From IMG/VR virus record IMGVR_UViG_3300045120_000265, positions 1-27,606 of that record: a stretch of 27,606 nt of DNA. One strand, 5' to 3'. This DNA comes from a virus. Made by a program: the position numbers and the translations under genes. Under the pieces are notes generated by a model. That model made no database searches and was not told where the DNA came from. It worked only from the letters and a program-made list of their open reading frames with translations. Below are positions 1-19,125 of the stretch, in pieces (within the stretch, counting starts at the first letter, position 1; every line of letters begins with the position of its first letter).

Positions 1-193
1 CGGTGTCGATCTGGAGTATCCATGCCGAGTTCAGCGTGCCAGCGATGGGCGAGTACCACGGCGCTGTCGGCAGCGTGACGGAGTTCACCGCGCAGAGTTG
101 ACGAACTGCGAGATCGAGTTGCCCCCAGTAGGCCGGCGCAAGCGTTCCGTAGTCCAATTGATACCAGTACAGTGTCGGTGGTGAGACGGTCAT
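1..193 (-). CDS. partial gene downstream of the HNH endonuclease, cut by the left edge
   Basis: An open frame begins at ATG 193-191, which overlaps the HNH stop codon as ATGA, and stays open for 64 codons to the window edge. The visible start reads MTVSPPTLYWYQLDYG and is rich in Tyr, Trp and Pro, with no recognisable domain. Its place just after the portal and HNH genes suggests a virion or assembly protein. That function is inferred from position only. Confidence 0.6.
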   Translation of the reverse strand, partial: MTVSPPTLYWYQLDYGTLAPAYWGQLDLAVRQLCAVNSVTLPTAPWYSPIAGTLNSAWILQIDT

Positions 194-822
194 GCCATGC
201 GCCCATCTAAGACAAGTATTTTCTCCATGGCCTGCTGGTGTGTAATACCGTGTTTGTGGACCTGCCAATAAATTCGACGACTTGGAAAGCCAAGCTCATC
301 GGCCGCGCCTGTCACGGATACCCGATTTCCGTTCAGGTATACATATCCGACTGCTCTAGTATTTCTCATTTGCTCTTTGTGGGTTGCCCATCGGCAGTTT
401 CCCGGCTCATACCCGCGCTCATTGTCAATGCGGTCAAGCGTCTTATCTGGCGGACGCACACCCATGTCGGCCAAGAAGTTTGCAAACTTCAGCCAGCGTT
501 CGCAGACCTTAATTCCGCGCGCCCCGTAATATTTGTAGACTGGCTGCCTGGGATTGGTGCATCGCTGAAGCATGTCGGCCCAAGTTCGGTATTCCCGCGT
601 TTCAGTCCCGCCAACGCACTTCCCATGCTTGGGGATACGCTTCAAGGAAGCTGCATGACAACCACAGGAAACAACGCGGCCACTGATAATGCTGTCACAT
701 CGTAGATTTTTCTCAACGCCACATGAGCACCGAGCATTGCAGAACGAATGTTTTCCGTCTCTGGTTTTGGGCGACGATAAAATCGTCAAGCGCCCATATA
801 CTCCGCCAATTTCTAGACTCAT
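190..822 (-). CDS. HNH homing-type endonuclease
   Basis: This 210-residue protein is a free-standing HNH nuclease. Residues 28-55 hold a Cys-rich cluster (CNARCSCG, then SCGC) that probably binds zinc. Residues 97-155 carry the phage HNH signature: YKYYGARGIKVCERW, then LDRIDNERGYEPGNCRWAT, in which D130, D133, N134 and the NCRWA segment form the metal-binding and catalytic core. The C-terminal 45 residues (ITHQQAMEKIL region) look like a small helix-turn-helix for DNA recognition. ATG 822 overlaps the portal stop as ATGA and its own stop overlaps the next gene, so it sits inside the morphogenesis operon without breaking coupling. Such nucleases normally cut an allele lacking them, or help terminase cutting; which applies here cannot be told. 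Confidence 0.9.
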   Translation of the reverse strand: MSLEIGGVYGRLTILSSPKTRDGKHSFCNARCSCGVEKNLRCDSIISGRVVSCGCHAASLKRIPKHGKCVGGTETREYRTWADMLQRCTNPRQPVYKYYGARGIKVCERWLKFANFLADMGVRPPDKTLDRIDNERGYEPGNCRWATHKEQMRNTRAVGYVYLNGNRVSVTGAADELGFPSRRIYWQVHKHGITHQQAMEKILVLDGRMA

Positions 823-2651
823 GCCGCGCCTCCGGCCTGTCCAGCTAAAAGTCCCAAAGCTGTTGAGCCGCCGCCGAGATCGGTTTTTGAAAGCGTCGCC
901 GCGCCCTCAACCATCGCCTGAAGGTCTTGCGTTTGCTTTGCCTCGGCCGCCTGTTGCGCCATCTGCTGCATCATCTTGTCCACTGTCTCGTCGGAGTTCA
1001 GCAACCGGCGCGATAGGCCGATCTGATCCGCATACTCGTTCATAAATTCGAGCGGGTTCAGCTTCATCTTCGCTTCTGGGTAGACCGCTCCCAAATTTCC
1101 AGCGATCTGCGCAAACCGTTCCATCGTCGCCGTCGAAGCTGCCTTCTGCGCGAGCGACATTAGCGACACATAGGAAATGTCGAGAGAGACCCCCCGCAAT
1201 GCCGCAGGCAGCGGCGGCAGCAACTGCTTGCGCTCCATGATGCGGAAGATTCGTTTGATCGCAGGCGATGCCGCCTCGTTCTGGAACCGCTCGACGACGG
1301 GGCCGAGCACTTGCAGCTTTTCCAGCGCCTTCTGCGCGTTCTCATACGCCGTGCGCCGGTCGCCTTCTTGCTGCGAGAACATCAGGAACAGGTCGTTGAA
1401 GAACCCGCGCTTGACGCGCCCCTGGACCTCCATCAAATCCTTCATCATCTGGTCAATCTGAGGATTGACGGTATAGCTCGGGCGCATACCTTTCTCGGGG
1501 CCGAGCTGCGCAACGTAGGTGACGTGGCCGGGGAGAATAGACGACGGCTCGTTCTTCATCTCCATGCTTGCGAGCATGGGCGGGCGAACCATCTTTTCAA
1601 TCGCCTCAGCCTTGCGCGCCGTTTCGACCTGAAGCTGCATTATGTCCGGCAGCGCATCCATTCCCGCCGACCGTCCGTATGCGTCGTTCGACGTGACGGC
1701 CCAGCGCGGACAGATGAACGGCGGATCTTTGAATCCGCGCATAGAGAGTGGGATTGACGACGCCTTGCCCCAGAGCCAGTAACACTCGCGCCATGTGTAG
1801 TCGCCCGGCACGACGCCGATGTCGTTGCCGTATCCGCCCACCGGGAAGTTTGGCTCGATCGCGTGCGCGACAATAAACTCGACTTCAAGCGAGCCGCCCT
1901 TGGTCTGCCATAACCCTTGAACGTCCGGCGGGCAGTTCTCCAGATTGAACATCTCGACGATCTGCGAGACCGTCATCACGAACAGGCGGTAGAGCGACTC
2001 GACGCGGAACGCATTGGACGACGCTGCAAAATACTCGCCTGGACACGGATTGTAGCAGCGGATGATGTCCTTCATGTCCTCGTAGATGATGACCGGCGCC
2101 GTGCCAAACGTCACGAGGTCTTCAAACATTTGCGCGCCGGAGTCGTAGAAGTTCGACCGCGCCATGACCTGATACATCAGGTCTTCCACATCCTCGAACC
2201 AATGCTCGACTTCTTCGCCAAGCGCGCCGCGTTCCGTCATTGCGGGCTTGAGTTTGAACCACGGACGGCCGGGCGACATGAGGCCGCCCATCATGCCGGC
2301 GGCGCAGATGCGCATGGCTTGGGTGCCGGTGGGGTCCAGAATTGATTGATTGATTGGATTTCCTCGCGACTGGTTATTGGGAACAGGCGAGGATGTATTT
2401 ATGAAAATCCCCCGGCGCGGGAGGATATAGGTCTCAAGTAGCTGCCAATGGAGAGACCACGAATTTCGCCAATTCCGCAACATCGCCAAACGCGCTTCGG
2501 AATGACCCTGAAGTATCCGCCACGGAGTAACGACGGTGGGCACCGATTTATTTTTTAGCTGCGCGGGCTGGCGCGCAAGCTGCTCAGGCCCAGACGTTTC
2601 GTATGCGGCTATGCGGGCAGCGCGTGATTGGCGTGCAACTGCTTGGGCCAT
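819..2651 (-). CDS. phage portal / head-to-tail connecting protein
   Basis: This 610-residue protein matches the podovirus head-to-tail connector family (T7 gp8-like, Pfam Head-tail_con) in length and motifs. It forms the dodecameric ring at the capsid vertex through which DNA is packaged and to which the tail binds. After about 42 variable residues come the conserved entry segment (W61-R80), the motif LDPTGTQAMRICAAGMMGGL (residues 106-125) followed by SPGRPWFKL, and a later segment with RWAVTSNDAYGRSAGMDALP. A Gln/Ala-rich helical tail ends the protein. ATG 2651 overlaps the upstream stop as TAATG, and its stop overlaps the HNH start. Identification is by recalled family resemblance and its place after terminase. 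Confidence 0.93.
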   Translation of the reverse strand: MAQAVARQSRAARIAAYETSGPEQLARQPAQLKNKSVPTVVTPWRILQGHSEARLAMLRNWRNSWSLHWQLLETYILPRRGIFINTSSPVPNNQSRGNPINQSILDPTGTQAMRICAAGMMGGLMSPGRPWFKLKPAMTERGALGEEVEHWFEDVEDLMYQVMARSNFYDSGAQMFEDLVTFGTAPVIIYEDMKDIIRCYNPCPGEYFAASSNAFRVESLYRLFVMTVSQIVEMFNLENCPPDVQGLWQTKGGSLEVEFIVAHAIEPNFPVGGYGNDIGVVPGDYTWRECYWLWGKASSIPLSMRGFKDPPFICPRWAVTSNDAYGRSAGMDALPDIMQLQVETARKAEAIEKMVRPPMLASMEMKNEPSSILPGHVTYVAQLGPEKGMRPSYTVNPQIDQMMKDLMEVQGRVKRGFFNDLFLMFSQQEGDRRTAYENAQKALEKLQVLGPVVERFQNEAASPAIKRIFRIMERKQLLPPLPAALRGVSLDISYVSLMSLAQKAASTATMERFAQIAGNLGAVYPEAKMKLNPLEFMNEYADQIGLSRRLLNSDETVDKMMQQMAQQAAEAKQTQDLQAMVEGAATLSKTDLGGGSTALGLLAGQAGGAA

Positions 2652-3426: not shown

Positions 3427-4263
3427 TCAGCGATTAAGGTAGGGCGAATGCGGCATGTACGAGCGAGATTGCTGCGGCTGACCGAGCGCGGAGCCCTGCT
3501 GCTGAGACTGTGGAGACCAAGCGGCAGCCATGGGGTCGTAGGAAAATTCGTGCTTCGTCTTCCGCGTCATCATCGGCATCCACTGATCCGGTGGACGCTG
3601 CGCCGCAAGTGCGATGCCTGTCATCACGCCGTAGCGCTCGCAATCCATAAGGTGATCGTTCTCTTTCACCCGCTTTCCGTTTTCGTCACGGCGATAGATG
3701 CGGTGCTCGGCGAGATAGTTATGCAGCGTGCTGAAAACCTTTAGCCGCCCAGTACTTTTGCGCGTCCACACCGCGTAGATGCCTGCCTCCACCGCATTGT
3801 CGGCCTTGACCAGATGCAGACCGAGTTGCGTGTACTGCGTGAGCAGAGCATCGCCATCTTTCTGGCTACCGATCCGCGATGCTGGGTCGATCACTCCAGG
3901 CATCCAATCACCCCGAGCCTTCACGGCTGCGGCGTGAATTGGGGGCTCGGCCTGCCCACGATAGTATTCCCCGTGCCAGTAGAGGATGTCGTGCTCGGGG
4001 TCTACGGCGCCCCATAGAACCGCCGTTCGCTGCCAACCTACGTCCATTGCGTAAAAGAATTTATACCAAGCCGGAAACTCGAACGGCTCGCACACGAAGT
4101 CTGATTCCGGCACAGGATAGATCGCGCCAGCGCCAAGCGACGGAATGCCGCGCACACGAGCATCGCGCTCGTGCGGCATATACGACGCTTCCATCTCCGC
4201 CTGTGCGTTCGGATCAATGTGAGGAACATCGCTCCACGAGGCTTGAATTGACCATTTCGTCAT
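3427..4263 (-). CDS. terminase large subunit, nuclease half (split gene)
   Basis: This 278-residue ORF carries the RNase H-like headful nuclease of a large terminase, which cuts concatemeric phage DNA at the start and end of packaging. Acidic residues expected of the fold are visible: D74 (YAMDVGWQRTA), D126 (PGVIDPASR) and D207 (DHLMDCERYG). The first 45 residues (WSIQASWSDVPHI, then HERDARVRGIPSLGAGAIYP) normally belong to the end of the ATPase domain. The last 40 residues are Gln/Ser-rich. ATG 4263 overlaps the ATPase-half stop as ATGA and has a good Shine-Dalgarno (GGAGG, 9 nt upstream), so independent translation is plausible. The two halves total 524 residues, a normal terminase length. 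Confidence 0.93.
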   Translation of the reverse strand: MTKWSIQASWSDVPHIDPNAQAEMEASYMPHERDARVRGIPSLGAGAIYPVPESDFVCEPFEFPAWYKFFYAMDVGWQRTAVLWGAVDPEHDILYWHGEYYRGQAEPPIHAAAVKARGDWMPGVIDPASRIGSQKDGDALLTQYTQLGLHLVKADNAVEAGIYAVWTRKSTGRLKVFSTLHNYLAEHRIYRRDENGKRVKENDHLMDCERYGVMTGIALAAQRPPDQWMPMMTRKTKHEFSYDPMAAAWSPQSQQQGSALGQPQQSRSYMPHSPYLNR

Positions 4264-5000
4264 GCGGCTTTCCCTCCAGGCAGATACGATAGCACGACGC
4301 CGCTTAGCCCTTTGAGCGGAGTGAAGCTACACATCACCAGCCCGGATGGCTGGCCAGGAACGGTACTGAGTGTGCGCGTGTGGCCCTCCGTGTAAATCGC
4401 CATCGGCGGCTCCTCATCGAAGACCATGATGTCGATTGCGGCGGCCTGGAAAGATTCGCGGCCCTGATCGTAGGTCTTGAACAGCACACGAGAATTTCCG
4501 CCATGGTCGCTCTTGACCGTTACGGCATCGACGGCCTCCGGCACACCAGCTCGCGCGGTTGTTGAGACGATGGAGTCGCCGGGTATGAGCCCCGTGCCCG
4601 GAGCCGACGGCGGACCAAGCAACGTCACCTGCAAAGATTCGCGCACAGCCTTAGCGTCCTCGCCAGCGGCCCACGCCACAACCGGACGATTAAATCGCCG
4701 TCCTGCCCACCAATGCGGATAGGCGCCGGTCAGATGGCAAGTAAGTTCGTAACAAACCGCGAGAGTTTTTCCGACCCGGTTCCCGGCGATAAAAGCGCGC
4801 TCTTGGTTGTCGGCTCCGGCCGCAAAGAACGCGAGGTGTTTTGGATATAGCTCGCGGCGGAGCGGGCCGGTATCAGGGTAAATCGTCCACAACTTCCGGC
4901 GCGACTCGGCGCGTTTAATTCGGTTTCTTAGTTCCTCCGCCAGTTCCGCCCGAGACTCCGGCGAGATCGTCGATAGCTGCGAGGAGAGCGCGTTGCTCAT
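4260..5000 (-). CDS. terminase large subunit, ATPase half (split gene)
   Basis: This 246-residue ORF is the packaging-motor half of the large terminase. Walker A is GNRVGKT (residues 73-79). Walker B is IMVFDEEPP, with D195 and E196 as the acidic pair. The coupling motif SFTPLKG lies at 225-231. It stops at TGA 4262-4260 soon after motif III, where related terminases continue without a break. The start ATG 5000 lies 86 bp inside the small terminase gene and has no clear ribosome-binding site. No ATG lies further downstream within the overlap, and the N-terminal segment resembles related terminases, so I keep it. The motor would hydrolyse ATP at the portal ring during packaging. Confidence 0.9.
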   Translation of the reverse strand: MSNALSSQLSTISPESRAELAEELRNRIKRAESRRKLWTIYPDTGPLRRELYPKHLAFFAAGADNQERAFIAGNRVGKTLAVCYELTCHLTGAYPHWWAGRRFNRPVVAWAAGEDAKAVRESLQVTLLGPPSAPGTGLIPGDSIVSTTARAGVPEAVDAVTVKSDHGGNSRVLFKTYDQGRESFQAAAIDIMVFDEEPPMAIYTEGHTRTLSTVPGQPSGLVMCSFTPLKGLSGVVLSYLPGGKAA

Positions 5001-5403
5001 CTAGGTCCATCTTGTCGAGTATCGAGAGGTCGATTTGCTTGCGATCAATGAACATCGACAATTCTTTGCCGATCAATTCCGACGCTCGCACGGCGGCGCT
5101 TGCCTGACCAGTGGCACGGGCAAGTTCGCGGTCGCGAATGAGCATGGAGAGAACGGTCTGCTTGTCCACCTTGCGCGGATCAATGCGCGGCTCGGCTTCG
5201 GCGGCCGGCGCGGATGTCGTAGTGACGCCACTGCTCTTTAGCTGGGCCACCCTCGCCACCACGTCGGGATGCCGCACGGCCTGGCTCACACTGCACGCGA
5301 GCACCGAGCCGATGCCGGACTTGGTGTACGCCTCGGTCTCGGCGACGCCGGTTGCGAGCAGGCGGGCGAAGGTGTCTACGGCGGCGATAGTGGGGTTAGC
5401 CAT
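4915..5403 (-). CDS. terminase small subunit (probable)
   Basis: A 162-residue protein directly upstream of the large terminase, where the small subunit is expected. Residues 10-55 fit a helix-turn-helix of the terminase small-subunit type (LATGVAETEAYTKSG, then VSQAVRHPDVVARVAQL). Residues 80-125 form a helical region (DKQTVLSMLIRDRELARATG) suited to oligomerisation, and the tail is Gly-rich. It would recognise the packaging site and bring the motor to DNA. The 3' end overlaps the large-subunit start by 86 bp. The start ATG 5403 overlaps an upstream TGA as TGATG. Assignment rests on position and general shape more than on a strong motif. Confidence 0.8.
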   Translation of the reverse strand: MANPTIAAVDTFARLLATGVAETEAYTKSGIGSVLACSVSQAVRHPDVVARVAQLKSSGVTTTSAPAAEAEPRIDPRKVDKQTVLSMLIRDRELARATGQASAAVRASELIGKELSMFIDRKQIDLSILDKMDLDEQRALLAAIDDLAGVSGGTGGGTKKPN

Positions 5404-13657: not shown

Positions 13658-13864
13658 ATGGAACCGGAGCAATTTCGGTCCCTTGCCATTGAGATATATG
13701 GCAAGTGGGGCCACCAACGTCACATGGCACGCGAGCATAAAGTCGCGCAAACTATCGTGCGGCGTTGGTGCCTTGGGCAACTGCCAATTCCACAAGAAGT
13801 CGTAGCAAGACTGCGTAAAGACGCAGCGAAGAAGCTAGGCGCGGTAGGCGATCTGCTCGCATGA
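13658..13864 (+). CDS. small helix-turn-helix protein
   Basis: A 68-residue protein, MEPEQFRSLAIEIYGKWGHQ onward. It has the same plan as the gene at 13277: a helix with IYGKWG, then a turn and recognition helix (HKVAQTIVRRWCLGQLPIP). It probably binds DNA. The stop overlaps the primase start as ATGA, so it is co-translated with the replication enzyme. Confidence 0.7.
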   Translation: MEPEQFRSLAIEIYGKWGHQRHMAREHKVAQTIVRRWCLGQLPIPQEVVARLRKDAAKKLGAVGDLLA

Positions 13865-16497
13865 CATCCACCCCCGCCCAGATCGAGTCCATCAGACAAA
13901 CCACGGACATCGTGGCACTGGTCCGGTCGAGCGTGAAGCTAACCCGCAAGGGCGACGTGTTCTGGGGGCTTTGTCCGTTTCATGGCCCGGAGAATACCGC
14001 GTCGTTCAAGGTCGATAACATCCGGCGCAGGTTTCACTGCTTCGCGTGCGGGGCCGATGGTGACGCCTTCAAATGGGTACAGGAAACTGAGCATCTGACA
14101 TTCCCCGAGGCGGTGGACTGGCTGAGCAACGGCCATGCGCCCAAGGTCAAAGCCAACGGTCACGCTGCACCCCATAAGCCGCCGCGCCCAACGCCGACGG
14201 CAATCATGCCTGTGCCGGCCGATGCTCCAGCGCCAGTGTTCGAGCACCCAAGACACGGCAAACCCAGCCAAACTTGGACTTACATGGGCAGCGCGGGCGA
14301 GCCGTTGGCCTATGTCGCGCGCTTCGACACGGCCGAAGGGAAAGAGATTATCCCTCGCGTCTACACCGCGACGGGCTGGCGCTGGCAGGGCTTACCTAAG
14401 CCGCGCCCGCTGTACGGGCTGGACCGCTTAGCCGCACGCCCTGACGCGCCTGTGGTCGTGGTCGAGGGCGAGAAATGTGCGGACGCGGCCGTTACGCTCT
14501 GCCCGAATCATGTGGTCGTGACGTGGTGCGGCGGCGTTGGTGCGGTCGAGTACACCGACTGGGCACCGCTGGCTGGCCGCAACGTGATGATCTGGCCGGA
14601 TGCCGACGATCCCGGCGTTAAGGCTGCGCACGCGATCAGGCAAATCTTAGGGAAGCAAGCCAAGACGGTTATGCCGCCGGATGATGCCGCGAAGGGCTTT
14701 GATGCTGCCGACGCGCTGGCCGAGGGCTGGGACTGGCCGCGCGTCCAAGACTGGCTCCTTCGCCGCCGCATCGGCGAGCCCCACGTCCATCGGCCGAAGA
14801 AGGAGAAGAAAGCTCGCGGCCCAATCCCCGAATCGGACAGCGACGGCGCCGATCCTATGCAGGGCGAAGGACTGCCCGCGCCGCTGCCGGAGCCGGAAGG
14901 TTGGCCGTTTCAGGTTTTAGGCCACTATCGCGGAACGCATTTTTATCTTCCGAACTCGGGCGGCACGATCATTACCCTATCTGCGTCGGCACATGTCCCA
15001 AAGAATTTTTACGATCTGGCCCCGCTAAACTTTTGGGAAGCCCAGTTCGGATGCAGGGAGCGGGCCGGGTGGGAAGCGGCGGCAAACGCGCTGATACAAA
15101 CCTCACTGAGGGTCGGCATCTATGACCAAACGCGGCTCCGCGGGCGCGGCGCATGGTGGGACGATGGCCGGGTCGTGGTTCACCTGGGAGATCGCCTAGT
15201 CGTGGACGGGATAGTGACGCCGATCCGCCAACATAAATCCGACTACTTTTACGAAGTCGGGGCCAAGATCAAATTTGCCTCGGGGCAACCACTCTCGAAC
15301 GCCGAGGCGTCGAAGCTGCTGGACCTCTGCAAGATGCTGGCATGGGAGCGCCCACTATCCGCCTACCAGCTCGCGGGCTGGATTGCCGGAGCACCGATCT
15401 GCGGCGCGTTGAAATGGCGCCCACATATTTTCGTGTCGGGAGTCGCAGGCGCGGGGAAAAGTTGGATTTATCAAAACATCATCGTGCGGGCGATCGGAAA
15501 CGCAGGATGGCCCCTTGCTTCCAGCGTCACTGAGCCAGGCATCCGCCGCGTTCTTGGGTCTGATGCGCTACCAGTTATGATTGACGAACTTGAAGCAAGA
15601 GACGAGCGCGGAGTTCAGCGCGTCGAGGGCATCATGGGCTTGATGCGCTATTCGTCCAGCGAAACCGATGCGATCATCGTCAAGGGCACACAGGGCGGCG
15701 GCGGCGTCGATATGTTCCGCATCCGCTCGATGTTCTGCATCTTGGCGATTGGTTCGATCATCAAGGACTATGCCGACACAACACGCATCAGCACCTTGTC
15801 GCTCAAGGCAGTAGCTGGCGCGGCAGGCGCCGAGCGCTTCGCGCGTATCGAAAGCGCAACGCGAGAGCTGCTGACCGATGATTGGATCGACCGATTGCAC
15901 TCGCGGATTGTCGGGCTCATTCCAGTGATTCGCCATAATGCTGAAGTGTTCGCGGTAGCGGGCGCGCAAGTCCTCGATACGAGGCGTTTGGGCGATCAGA
16001 TCGGAACGCAACTCGCCCTGGCTTACGCACTGACCAGCATAAAACAAATCACGCCAGCCGATGCAAAAGCGTGGCTTGAAAGTCAGGACTGGACAGAGGA
16101 GCGCGAAATCACCCAGGACACCGACGGGCCGATGTGCTTGGCGAAAATACTTGAGCACCAAATCTCGGTCGAGACCGCAGGGCGCGGATCGGTCAAGCGC
16201 ACCATCGGCGAACTGATCGTGCTGTCGCGCCACACGATGTACCAAACGGACGAATTTATCTCATCCGACACCGCAGGCTCAGCGCTGAAGCGGCACGGGA
16301 TTGCCCCCATGAAAGGCGACTATGAGGGGTTTGTGGCTATCTCGAACACACACTCGGCCATCGGAAAAATTCTGTACGACACGCCGTGGGCAAGCAATTG
16401 GAGCCGCCGGCTGGCCGTGATTCCCGAAGCACTCAAGCACGATAAGGCGATCTATTTTGCCGGGACCGTCAGCCGCGCCGTGCTGGTTAAGGTTTAA
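13861..16497 (+). CDS. primase-helicase (CHC2 zinc finger, TOPRIM, ATPase)
   Basis: An 878-residue replication protein. Residues 1-90 form a CHC2 zinc-binding primase domain with ligands C38, H41, C60 and C63 (CPFH and CFAC). A Pro-rich linker leads to a TOPRIM-like region (VVVVEGEKCADAA with E202, and IWPDADDPG with D247 and D249) expected to hold catalytic metal. After a second linker (310-345), residues 350-700 resemble the DUF927-type helicase: Walker A GVAGAGKSW at 527-534 and Walker B VMIDELEARD near 572-581. It would synthesise primers and unwind the phage fork. Convergent stop codons overlap with rusA (TTAA). Confidence 0.92.
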   Translation: MTSTPAQIESIRQTTDIVALVRSSVKLTRKGDVFWGLCPFHGPENTASFKVDNIRRRFHCFACGADGDAFKWVQETEHLTFPEAVDWLSNGHAPKVKANGHAAPHKPPRPTPTAIMPVPADAPAPVFEHPRHGKPSQTWTYMGSAGEPLAYVARFDTAEGKEIIPRVYTATGWRWQGLPKPRPLYGLDRLAARPDAPVVVVEGEKCADAAVTLCPNHVVVTWCGGVGAVEYTDWAPLAGRNVMIWPDADDPGVKAAHAIRQILGKQAKTVMPPDDAAKGFDAADALAEGWDWPRVQDWLLRRRIGEPHVHRPKKEKKARGPIPESDSDGADPMQGEGLPAPLPEPEGWPFQVLGHYRGTHFYLPNSGGTIITLSASAHVPKNFYDLAPLNFWEAQFGCRERAGWEAAANALIQTSLRVGIYDQTRLRGRGAWWDDGRVVVHLGDRLVVDGIVTPIRQHKSDYFYEVGAKIKFASGQPLSNAEASKLLDLCKMLAWERPLSAYQLAGWIAGAPICGALKWRPHIFVSGVAGAGKSWIYQNIIVRAIGNAGWPLASSVTEPGIRRVLGSDALPVMIDELEARDERGVQRVEGIMGLMRYSSSETDAIIVKGTQGGGGVDMFRIRSMFCILAIGSIIKDYADTTRISTLSLKAVAGAAGAERFARIESATRELLTDDWIDRLHSRIVGLIPVIRHNAEVFAVAGAQVLDTRRLGDQIGTQLALAYALTSIKQITPADAKAWLESQDWTEEREITQDTDGPMCLAKILEHQISVETAGRGSVKRTIGELIVLSRHTMYQTDEFISSDTAGSALKRHGIAPMKGDYEGFVAISNTHSAIGKILYDTPWASNWSRRLAVIPEALKHDKAIYFAGTVSRAVLVKV

Positions 16498-18092: not shown

Positions 18093-19034
18093 TCAAAAGT
18101 AGTTTTGGGTTTCAGCGGCCATTATGGCTTCGCCGATGATTTGCGGGATTTGCGGGACGACGGCATTTCCGAGGCTCCTAAGACGGTCCACCCTGCCGGG
18201 AACCCCATGAGCCACTCTACCCACGTCGGGTTCAGTTGCCCACCATTCCCTTCCAGAGCGATCTTGTCGTTCAGGTTGCGCGTGCCCTGGCGGCGCTCCC
18301 AATGCGCTTTCGAGCCCGAGCGATAGTCTCTCGCTGTCGGCGTCGGGTACATCGCGGCCATGCTCGAAAGGCTCGGAGAGTTGCGCCGACGTTCCGCGGG
18401 GCAGTCCGCAGTCGCTCGCGCCGTTGGCGTCGGCCACATCTTCACAGCCTGGGCCAAATCGACCTGAACCTTCTTGCCATTGTGATAGGCCGTCCGCCCA
18501 CGCCAATCGTTGACGTGCGCCACCGATCGTCCGCCGTTCGGGACCATGGGGGTAGGCCACAATCCAAACTCGGTCTCGTCTGTGAGGGGCACCAACGGCG
18601 GAAGCTGGAATGCATTGCCATTCCGCATCAAACCCGATCTTGGCCAAGTCTCTGAGAACCGTTTCCAGCCCTCTAGTAAGCAGCGCTGAGACGTTCTCCA
18701 CGATTGCATATCGTGGTCGTAGCTCGCCAATGAGGCGGGCGTATTCGCGCCATAGGCCGCTGCGCTCGCCCTCAATGCCAGCCTGTCGGCCGGCAGCGCT
18801 GATGTCCTGGCAGGGGAAGCCTCCGCAGATGATCTCGGGATCAATTCCATCTGCTCGGAGTCGTTCGGCTGTGAGAGCTCGCACGTCGTCGTAGGCGGGG
18901 ACGTTGGGCCAGTGTTTTCGGAGGACGGCGCGGCAGTAAGGATCAATCTCGCAGAATGCGACAGTTCGCATCCCGGCCCGCTCGAGCCCGAGACTGAATC
19001 CGCCAATTCCGCTGAAGAGGTCCAGTACACGCAT
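18093..19034 (-). CDS. C5 cytosine DNA methyltransferase
   Basis: A 313-residue enzyme that transfers a methyl group from SAM to cytosine C5 in DNA. Motif I is DLFSGIGGFSLGLERAG (residues 5-21). Motif IV is GGFPCQDIS with catalytic C75. Motif VI is the ENV at 113-115 (IVENVSALL). Motif VIII is CIPASAVGAPHRRDRVW. Motif X is LGNAVVPQI near the end, and a Gly/Asp-rich target-recognition region lies between VIII and X. ATG 19034 has CGGAG upstream and begins right at motif I; a longer frame from 19085 is unlikely. No matching restriction enzyme is visible, so it probably protects phage DNA or changes expression. A second long frame runs through it. Confidence 0.92.
   Translation of the reverse strand: MRVLDLFSGIGGFSLGLERAGMRTVAFCEIDPYCRAVLRKHWPNVPAYDDVRALTAERLRADGIDPEIICGGFPCQDISAAGRQAGIEGERSGLWREYARLIGELRPRYAIVENVSALLTRGLETVLRDLAKIGFDAEWQCIPASAVGAPHRRDRVWIVAYPHGPERRTIGGARQRLAWADGLSQWQEGSGRFGPGCEDVADANGASDCGLPRGTSAQLSEPFEHGRDVPDADSERLSLGLESALGAPPGHAQPERQDRSGREWWATEPDVGRVAHGVPGRVDRLRSLGNAVVPQIPQIIGEAIMAAETQNYF
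18122..19030 (-). other. 302-codon second frame inside the methyltransferase gene
   Basis: The same strand has another frame open for 302 codons, from GTG 19030 to the stop at 18122, almost the whole methyltransferase. Its translation has segments I recall from many database proteins: RFSETWPRSGLMRNG, FGLWPTP, WPTPTARATAD, and LNPTWVEWLMGFPAGW. These correspond to methyltransferase motifs VI-X read in the other phase. It may be a by-product of a conserved gene in GC-rich DNA, or an overprinted second gene. Translation is unproven; the methyltransferase frame is the certain one. Confidence 0.35.
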
Positions 19035-19046
19035 CAATGCTCCGTA

Positions 19047-19066
19047 GGCTGCCAATTTAGGCAGCC
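19047..19066. promoter_or_regulatory. perfect palindrome in the methyltransferase leader
   Basis: GGCTGCC (19047-19053) and GGCAGCC (19060-19066) form a perfect 7-bp inverted repeat around AATTTA, 12 bp before the methyltransferase start. It could be an operator for autoregulation, which is common for C5 methyltransferases, or an RNA hairpin that limits translation. Confidence 0.5.
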
Positions 19067-19075
19067 CGCGGACGA

Positions 19076-19125
19076 TTGTCCACACACAAAACTACAGAAT
19101 TTCTATAATCTACTTTTGTCCACAC
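19076..19125. promoter_or_regulatory. divergent promoter region with two DnaA-box-like sequences
   Basis: TTGTCCACAC occurs at 19076-19085 and 19116-19125, exactly 40 bp apart. Its first nine bases differ from the DnaA box TTATCCACA at one position. A perfect TATAAT lies between them at 19104-19109, pointing toward the recombinase, without a good -35. The region separates the leftward methyltransferase operon from the rightward recombinase. It may be co-regulated or DnaA-responsive. Confidence 0.5.

Follow-up and report, generated by a model that had tools for sequence, protein, structure and literature searches.

Large terminase genes of the window

In the window, by which we mean the whole stretch of 27,606 nucleotides of viral DNA analyzed here, the large terminase (TerL) is encoded on the minus strand by two ORFs. 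TerL-N (4260..5000, 246 aa) is the ATPase half and carries the ASCE core with Walker A, Walker B, and motif III; TerL-C (3427..4263, 278 aa) carries the C-terminal part of the ATPase domain (the lid region), the linker, and the RNase H-like nuclease. A first-pass annotation had reported an ATPase ORF and a nuclease ORF overlapping by ATGA, with GGAGG 9 nt upstream, and its coordinates were exact when compared with the sequence and the ORF list. The TerL-N stop is TGA 4262-4260, and the TerL-C start is ATG 4263; the resulting ATGA stop/start overlap (4260..4263, minus strand) and the ribosome-binding-like GGAGG 9 nt 5' of the TerL-C ATG (4273..4277, minus strand) were both read from the sequence. 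The junction sequence is GGAGGGAAAGCCGCATGACG. No canonical -1 slippery heptamer lies in frame at the junction, as that annotation had also observed; the TerL-N frame there reads GGA GGG AAA GCC GCA TGA, and the TerL-C frame is open 5' of its ATG up to about nt 4326. A stop and a start thus separate the two ORFs, and the two domains are not on one polypeptide in the window.

The pair sits in a packaging operon with the order probable small terminase (TerS), TerL-N, TerL-C, small ORF, portal, and HNH endonuclease. The probable TerS (4915..5403, minus strand) overlaps the TerL-N start and has the position and overlap of the annotated TerS in JF412294 and NZ_CP103299; it had no family match of its own in Pfam or PHROG. 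The portal, or head-to-tail connecting protein (819..2651, minus strand), matches Head-tail_con (2e-129), and directly 3' of its gene is the HNH endonuclease gene (190-822, minus strand; phrog_374, 6e-56), some 2.6 kb away from the two terminase ORFs. Elsewhere in the window are genes for an 878-aa primase-like protein with a DnaG-type zinc ribbon and DUF6371 (13861-16497, plus strand) and for a C-5 cytosine DNA methyltransferase (18093-19085, minus strand; PF00145, 1.2e-43).

Both ORFs could be assigned to the TerL family. TerL-N matches the Pfam family Terminase_6N (E = 3.1e-14), and the two ORFs cover consecutive parts of phrog_2, with TerL-N at positions 265-403 and TerL-C at positions 424-594. 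TerL-C also matches phrog_5653 (5e-20), and its profile matches a solved TerL nuclease (4dkw, 5e-35) and, from chain residue 201, the D6E TerL (5oe8). The ATPase-half profile gave no terminase match in the PDB, and the NCBIfam models gave no match to either half. We considered phrog_31467 and phrog_5653 as families of the split halves and dropped them; phrog_31467 extends about 20 residues beyond the cut. Each of these two PHROGs covers one part of TerL, and other TerL splits or truncations may exist in reference phages.

The ATPase motifs had been described as intact in the first ORF, and we found them so: Walker A is GNRVGKT (residues 73 to 79), Walker B is FDEE (D195 and E196), and motif III is SFTPLKG. 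They are conserved among relatives, with K78, D195, E196, and T227 invariant. In TerL-C, the nuclease acidic residues D74, D126, and D207 are conserved. Split loci keep the Walker A lysine, the Walker B DE, the motif III threonine, and the nuclease aspartates, as fused loci do.

The window ORFs are complementary, are both conserved, and together correspond to an intact TerL homologue. From TerL-N residue 236 to TerL-C residue 6 there are 15 aa in the window, whereas fused relatives have about 12-29 aa there (median, 19). Because this stretch falls inside the fused-relative length range, no coding sequence is missing, which bears out the earlier claim that nothing is absent between the halves; alignment to intact terminases, which had been proposed as a check, likewise showed that the window halves make up an intact TerL without loss.

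Position of the cut in the protein

To place the cut, we used the D6E TerL, in which the P-loop partner N169, the lid residue Y213, R224, and the linker at 230-241 have been described (PMC5727402). The first TerL-C residue corresponds approximately to chain residue 193 of 5OE8, a position good to several residues only because the alignment is weak there (E = 7e-07); the fused EBPR TerL aligns to D6E consistently with this placement. N169 therefore precedes the cut, and Y213, R224, and the linker come after it. This agrees with the suggestion that the split falls within the last part of the ATPase domain and not in the ATPase-nuclease linker. On this mapping, a division of the ATPase domain between its ASCE core and its lid is predicted, and the lid would belong to the nuclease chain. 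Because the cut follows motif III and precedes the lid and linker, the chains would have to meet inside the ATPase domain, which supports the proposal that two chains must assemble.

Split and fused terminases among related loci

Relatives were collected by tblastn of the halves in phages and then by scanning both viral contigs and bacterial genomes, and a locus was counted if both halves were on one strand. Of the 299 distinct loci obtained, 164 are fused and the other 135 carry the split at the same loop; this proportion (45%) is not a population frequency because sampling was biased towards the queries. A break elsewhere within either half was seen in only 1 of the 299 loci, which makes the loop a strong hot spot. 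L005 and L006, which are closest to the window (61-65% identity) and come from different metagenomes, carry the same ATGA split; a base error is therefore not its cause. Since the split recurs at exactly that place, chance or error is excluded, and the earlier reading of a genuine split, for which the same split in related phages had been the suggested check, holds for these two relatives and for many further loci. Unbroken relatives, which had been named as a possible refutation, do exist (EBPR podovirus 1 and Chlorobiaceae phage CV-1-33), but they are placed beside many split ones. One deposited phage genome, Podoviridae sp. ct2G2228 (MW202785), is annotated with two "large terminase protein" CDS.

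The matched parts are separated by gaps of between -1 nt, in the window, and 2785 nt, and the spacers extend from the 4-nt overlap up to 2.8 kb. The -4 ATGA-type overlap is the commonest single class (28 of 120 scored split loci), and all three relative frames of the halves occur (59/52/24).

The split is also present in cultured bacteria, among them Halomonas sp. McH1-25, Kushneria aurantia, Chromohalobacter canadensis, Litchfieldella, Sphingomonas melonis, Acetobacter musti, Azospirillum (three), Phenylobacterium deserti, and Neptunomonas marina. All eight cultured-host genomes that we tested contain one copy of the nuclease half per genome. A closed circular phage-plasmid of Endozoicomonas gorgoniicola (54 kb) encodes TerS, the ATPase half, the nuclease half, a portal-position gene, and a capsid gene. 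There, the ATPase half is annotated as "terminase family protein" and the nuclease half as "hypothetical protein," and no other annotated terminase is present in the 50 kb listed of the 54 kb.

In 88 of 131 split loci, but in 0 of 144 fused loci, the residue aligned with the beginning of the nuclease half is encoded by a start codon, a comparison with a mild bias in that the aligned position was defined by the window protein. Shine-Dalgarno (SD)-like matches of at least 4 nt are found before 48% of nuclease-half starts, only about half of them, compared with 28% of internal start-like codons (Fisher p 1e-5). For close split pairs, the median dN/dS was 0.11 and 0.09 for the two halves, and for close pairs of fused loci dN/dS was 0.07 and 0.04; close pairs were used because distant pairs made up most of a set in which dS was the only filter. 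These low values indicate that both halves are under purifying selection, which is somewhat weaker in the split set.

The split/fused state has changed repeatedly across the tree. In a tree of 191 rows, the split label requires at least 28 changes, 8 of which are forced by well-supported branches, and none of 200 bootstraps of a local tree, built for the clade of the window, recovered a single origin. The tree is compatible both with repeated splitting and with some re-fusion.

Contents of the gap

Endonuclease-type genes occupy 7 of the 63 spacers of 180 nt or more, and none is present at the window junction. They belong to several classes: HNH_3-NUMOD4 (L085 and L094), HNH_3-AP2 (L384), HNH (L203), Endonuclease_7 (EndoVII; L152 and L403), and T5orf172 (L101). 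In addition, the gap of L001 contains an AP2-like remnant with 41% identity to the L384 enzyme. Most long spacers hold other cargo or nothing recognizable. This cargo includes a Tad2-like (Thoeris anti-defence 2) domain protein in an Azospirillum agricola prophage (L170:2819-3409, plus strand), a HipA-like gene on the strand opposite to the TerL halves (L418:5228-6763, minus strand), beta-helix or tail-like genes, and small recurring ORFs.

Some further features of these loci were noted in passing. Beside the HipA-like gene is a smaller ORF that looks HTH-like by eye. A small ORF of about 65-100 aa recurs between the halves of Halomonadaceae-type loci (L160:1357-1554, L193:3771-4001, and similar); it has a motif like RDxLxxxxxERGIxxGTLxxxIARxxxP, and no Pfam match was seen. 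Within the ATPase of another TerL of the same gene family (L114, about 3836-5001; also L116 and L119), an in-frame insert of 1.16 kb just before Walker B matches LAGLIDADG_3 (9e-10) and, weakly, Intein_splicing (2.5e-4) and is a probable intein.

Discussion

We consider it likely that the window TerL is a genuine two-gene, two-chain enzyme, a "gene in pieces" whose products assemble non-covalently and whose division is probably endonuclease derived. The sequence anatomy, the recurrence of the split, the conservation of both halves, the separate start codons, and the endonuclease inserts in some members all point in this direction. In such an enzyme, TerL-N would supply the ASCE ATPase core; the lid region that ends the ATPase domain would come from TerL-C, along with the linker and the nuclease. 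The halves would be translated as separate but coupled ORFs by way of the ATGA overlap and a Shine-Dalgarno sequence belonging to TerL-C, and the chains would most likely join at the ASCE-lid interface to give one functional TerL subunit of the packaging ring. The cut loop varies in length and tolerates interruption. Chain assembly, packaging activity, and the endonuclease origin of the window split are predictions from sequence. A broader reading, which seems to us unlikely, is that a large family of podovirus-like phages shares a stable two-subunit packaging motor whose ATPase domain is divided, the lid being carried by the nuclease chain. Having separate chains might then bring its own benefit, for example, if the nuclease-lid chain exchanges between cutting and packaging phases, and the gap would be a docking site for mobile and anti-defence genes.

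Endonuclease insertion is most likely a repeated source of the splits in this family, and for the window's own split it is the source that we infer. In a plausible sequence of events, of which only the endpoints are seen, a homing endonuclease gene would insert into the permissive loop of terL, a start codon would arise for the downstream part, the endonuclease gene would be lost or replaced, and the halves would tighten to an ATGA overlap; the window would represent the stage reduced to the overlap. The alternative that survives best concerns this origin alone and leaves the two-chain enzyme the same: a neutral history of indels or recombination in the permissive loop, without homing endonucleases. 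Most spacers have no recognizable endonuclease, Tad2-like, HipA-like, and tail-like genes are among the cargo, and the -4 overlap outnumbers every other single split class, all of which such a history could accommodate. However, the cut is the exact site of seven endonuclease-type genes, drawn from several classes, and of one remnant, and homing endonuclease genes are known to split nrdA (PMC2988022), so that we regard a neutral origin as possible but doubtful.

The remaining alternatives would restore a single chain or deny a functional one. Rejoining of the halves by RNA splicing (a group I or II intron) or by protein trans-splicing (a split intein) has precedent in that terL introns with nearby endonucleases are known (PMC10448857, PMC7344957, and PMC12363816) and an intein lies elsewhere in the same TerL family (L114). 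However, an Rfam scan of the window and of 14 split loci detected neither group I nor group II introns, a 4-nt overlap is too small for any intron, and the halves end and start beside conserved TerL sequence without intein parts; splicing is accordingly very unlikely. We hold programmed -1 frameshifting or ribosomal bypassing, which would yield one full-length TerL, to be just as improbable. The window frames do overlap, and that of TerL-C is open upstream of its ATG, but there is no in-frame slippery heptamer, every one of the three relative frames occurs among the relatives, and the nuclease half begins with a start codon of its own, often with an SD; nor can this mechanism account for the spacers, up to 2.8 kb long, that contain whole genes. 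Least credible is that a sequencing or assembly error, or decay into a pseudogene, broke an intact gene by one base change: a one-base shift would unite the window frames and fused relatives exist, but the identical ATGA split in the closest relatives from other metagenomes, the 135 split loci with cultured isolates and a closed replicon among them, the conserved motifs, the purifying selection on both halves, and the start codon at the junction leave it barely tenable.

One question in viral DNA packaging is how the ATPase core, lid, and nuclease of TerL are coupled. A two-chain TerL, with its natural separation of the ASCE core from the lid and nuclease, lets this coupling be probed by mixing, titrating, and mutating the halves. 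The split is also a warning for annotators and for TerL-based phylogeny, in that RefSeq labels the nuclease half "hypothetical protein" and NCBIfam misses both halves. Beyond what the first-pass annotation had seen, the split is widespread and recurrent, and selfish endonucleases occupy the gap in some relatives; together, these loci offer material for studying the repeated fission of an essential gene at a single spot.

The TerL proteins of EBPR podovirus 1 (JF412294), Stenotrophomonas phage StenR_269, and CV-1-33 belong to the same family as the window TerL, share its motifs, and have roughly 45-53% identity to its halves, but each is encoded by a single uninterrupted gene. Phage ct2G2228 resembles the window in that its terL is cut at the same place into two CDS; unlike the window, it has a 133-nt spacer with an AP2-like remnant. 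We found no comment on the ct2G2228 split and, in the open-access literature, no published terL that remains in two chains without an intron. Interruption of terL by mobile elements, introns or inteins, is known from Vibrio phage ICP1 (PMC10448857), Pectobacterium phage CB7 (PMC7344957), the Jug phages (PMC12363816), and Microcystis phage Mic1 (PMC7156551), and in this the window TerL is similar. In ICP1, CB7, and the Jug phages, the gene is rejoined by RNA splicing (PMC10448857, PMC7344957, and PMC12363816). Unlike these terL genes, which are spliced to one chain, the terL described here has no intron or intein that we could find, and its second half has its own start codon.

The split but functional phage enzymes include NrdA of Aeromonas phage Aeh1 (mobE), the T4 topoisomerase (mobA), and the gp43A/B polymerase, and for NrdA and DNA polymerase the split chains give active enzyme (PMC2988022). 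The present case differs from these in that the gene is terL, one loop has been cut many times across a broad family, most split members have no endonuclease, and the assembly of the chains is predicted from sequence. Like the Aeh1 nrdA and T4-like genes in pieces, however, it is an essential enzyme gene in two separately translated ORFs, with a homing-endonuclease-type gene between them in some relatives.
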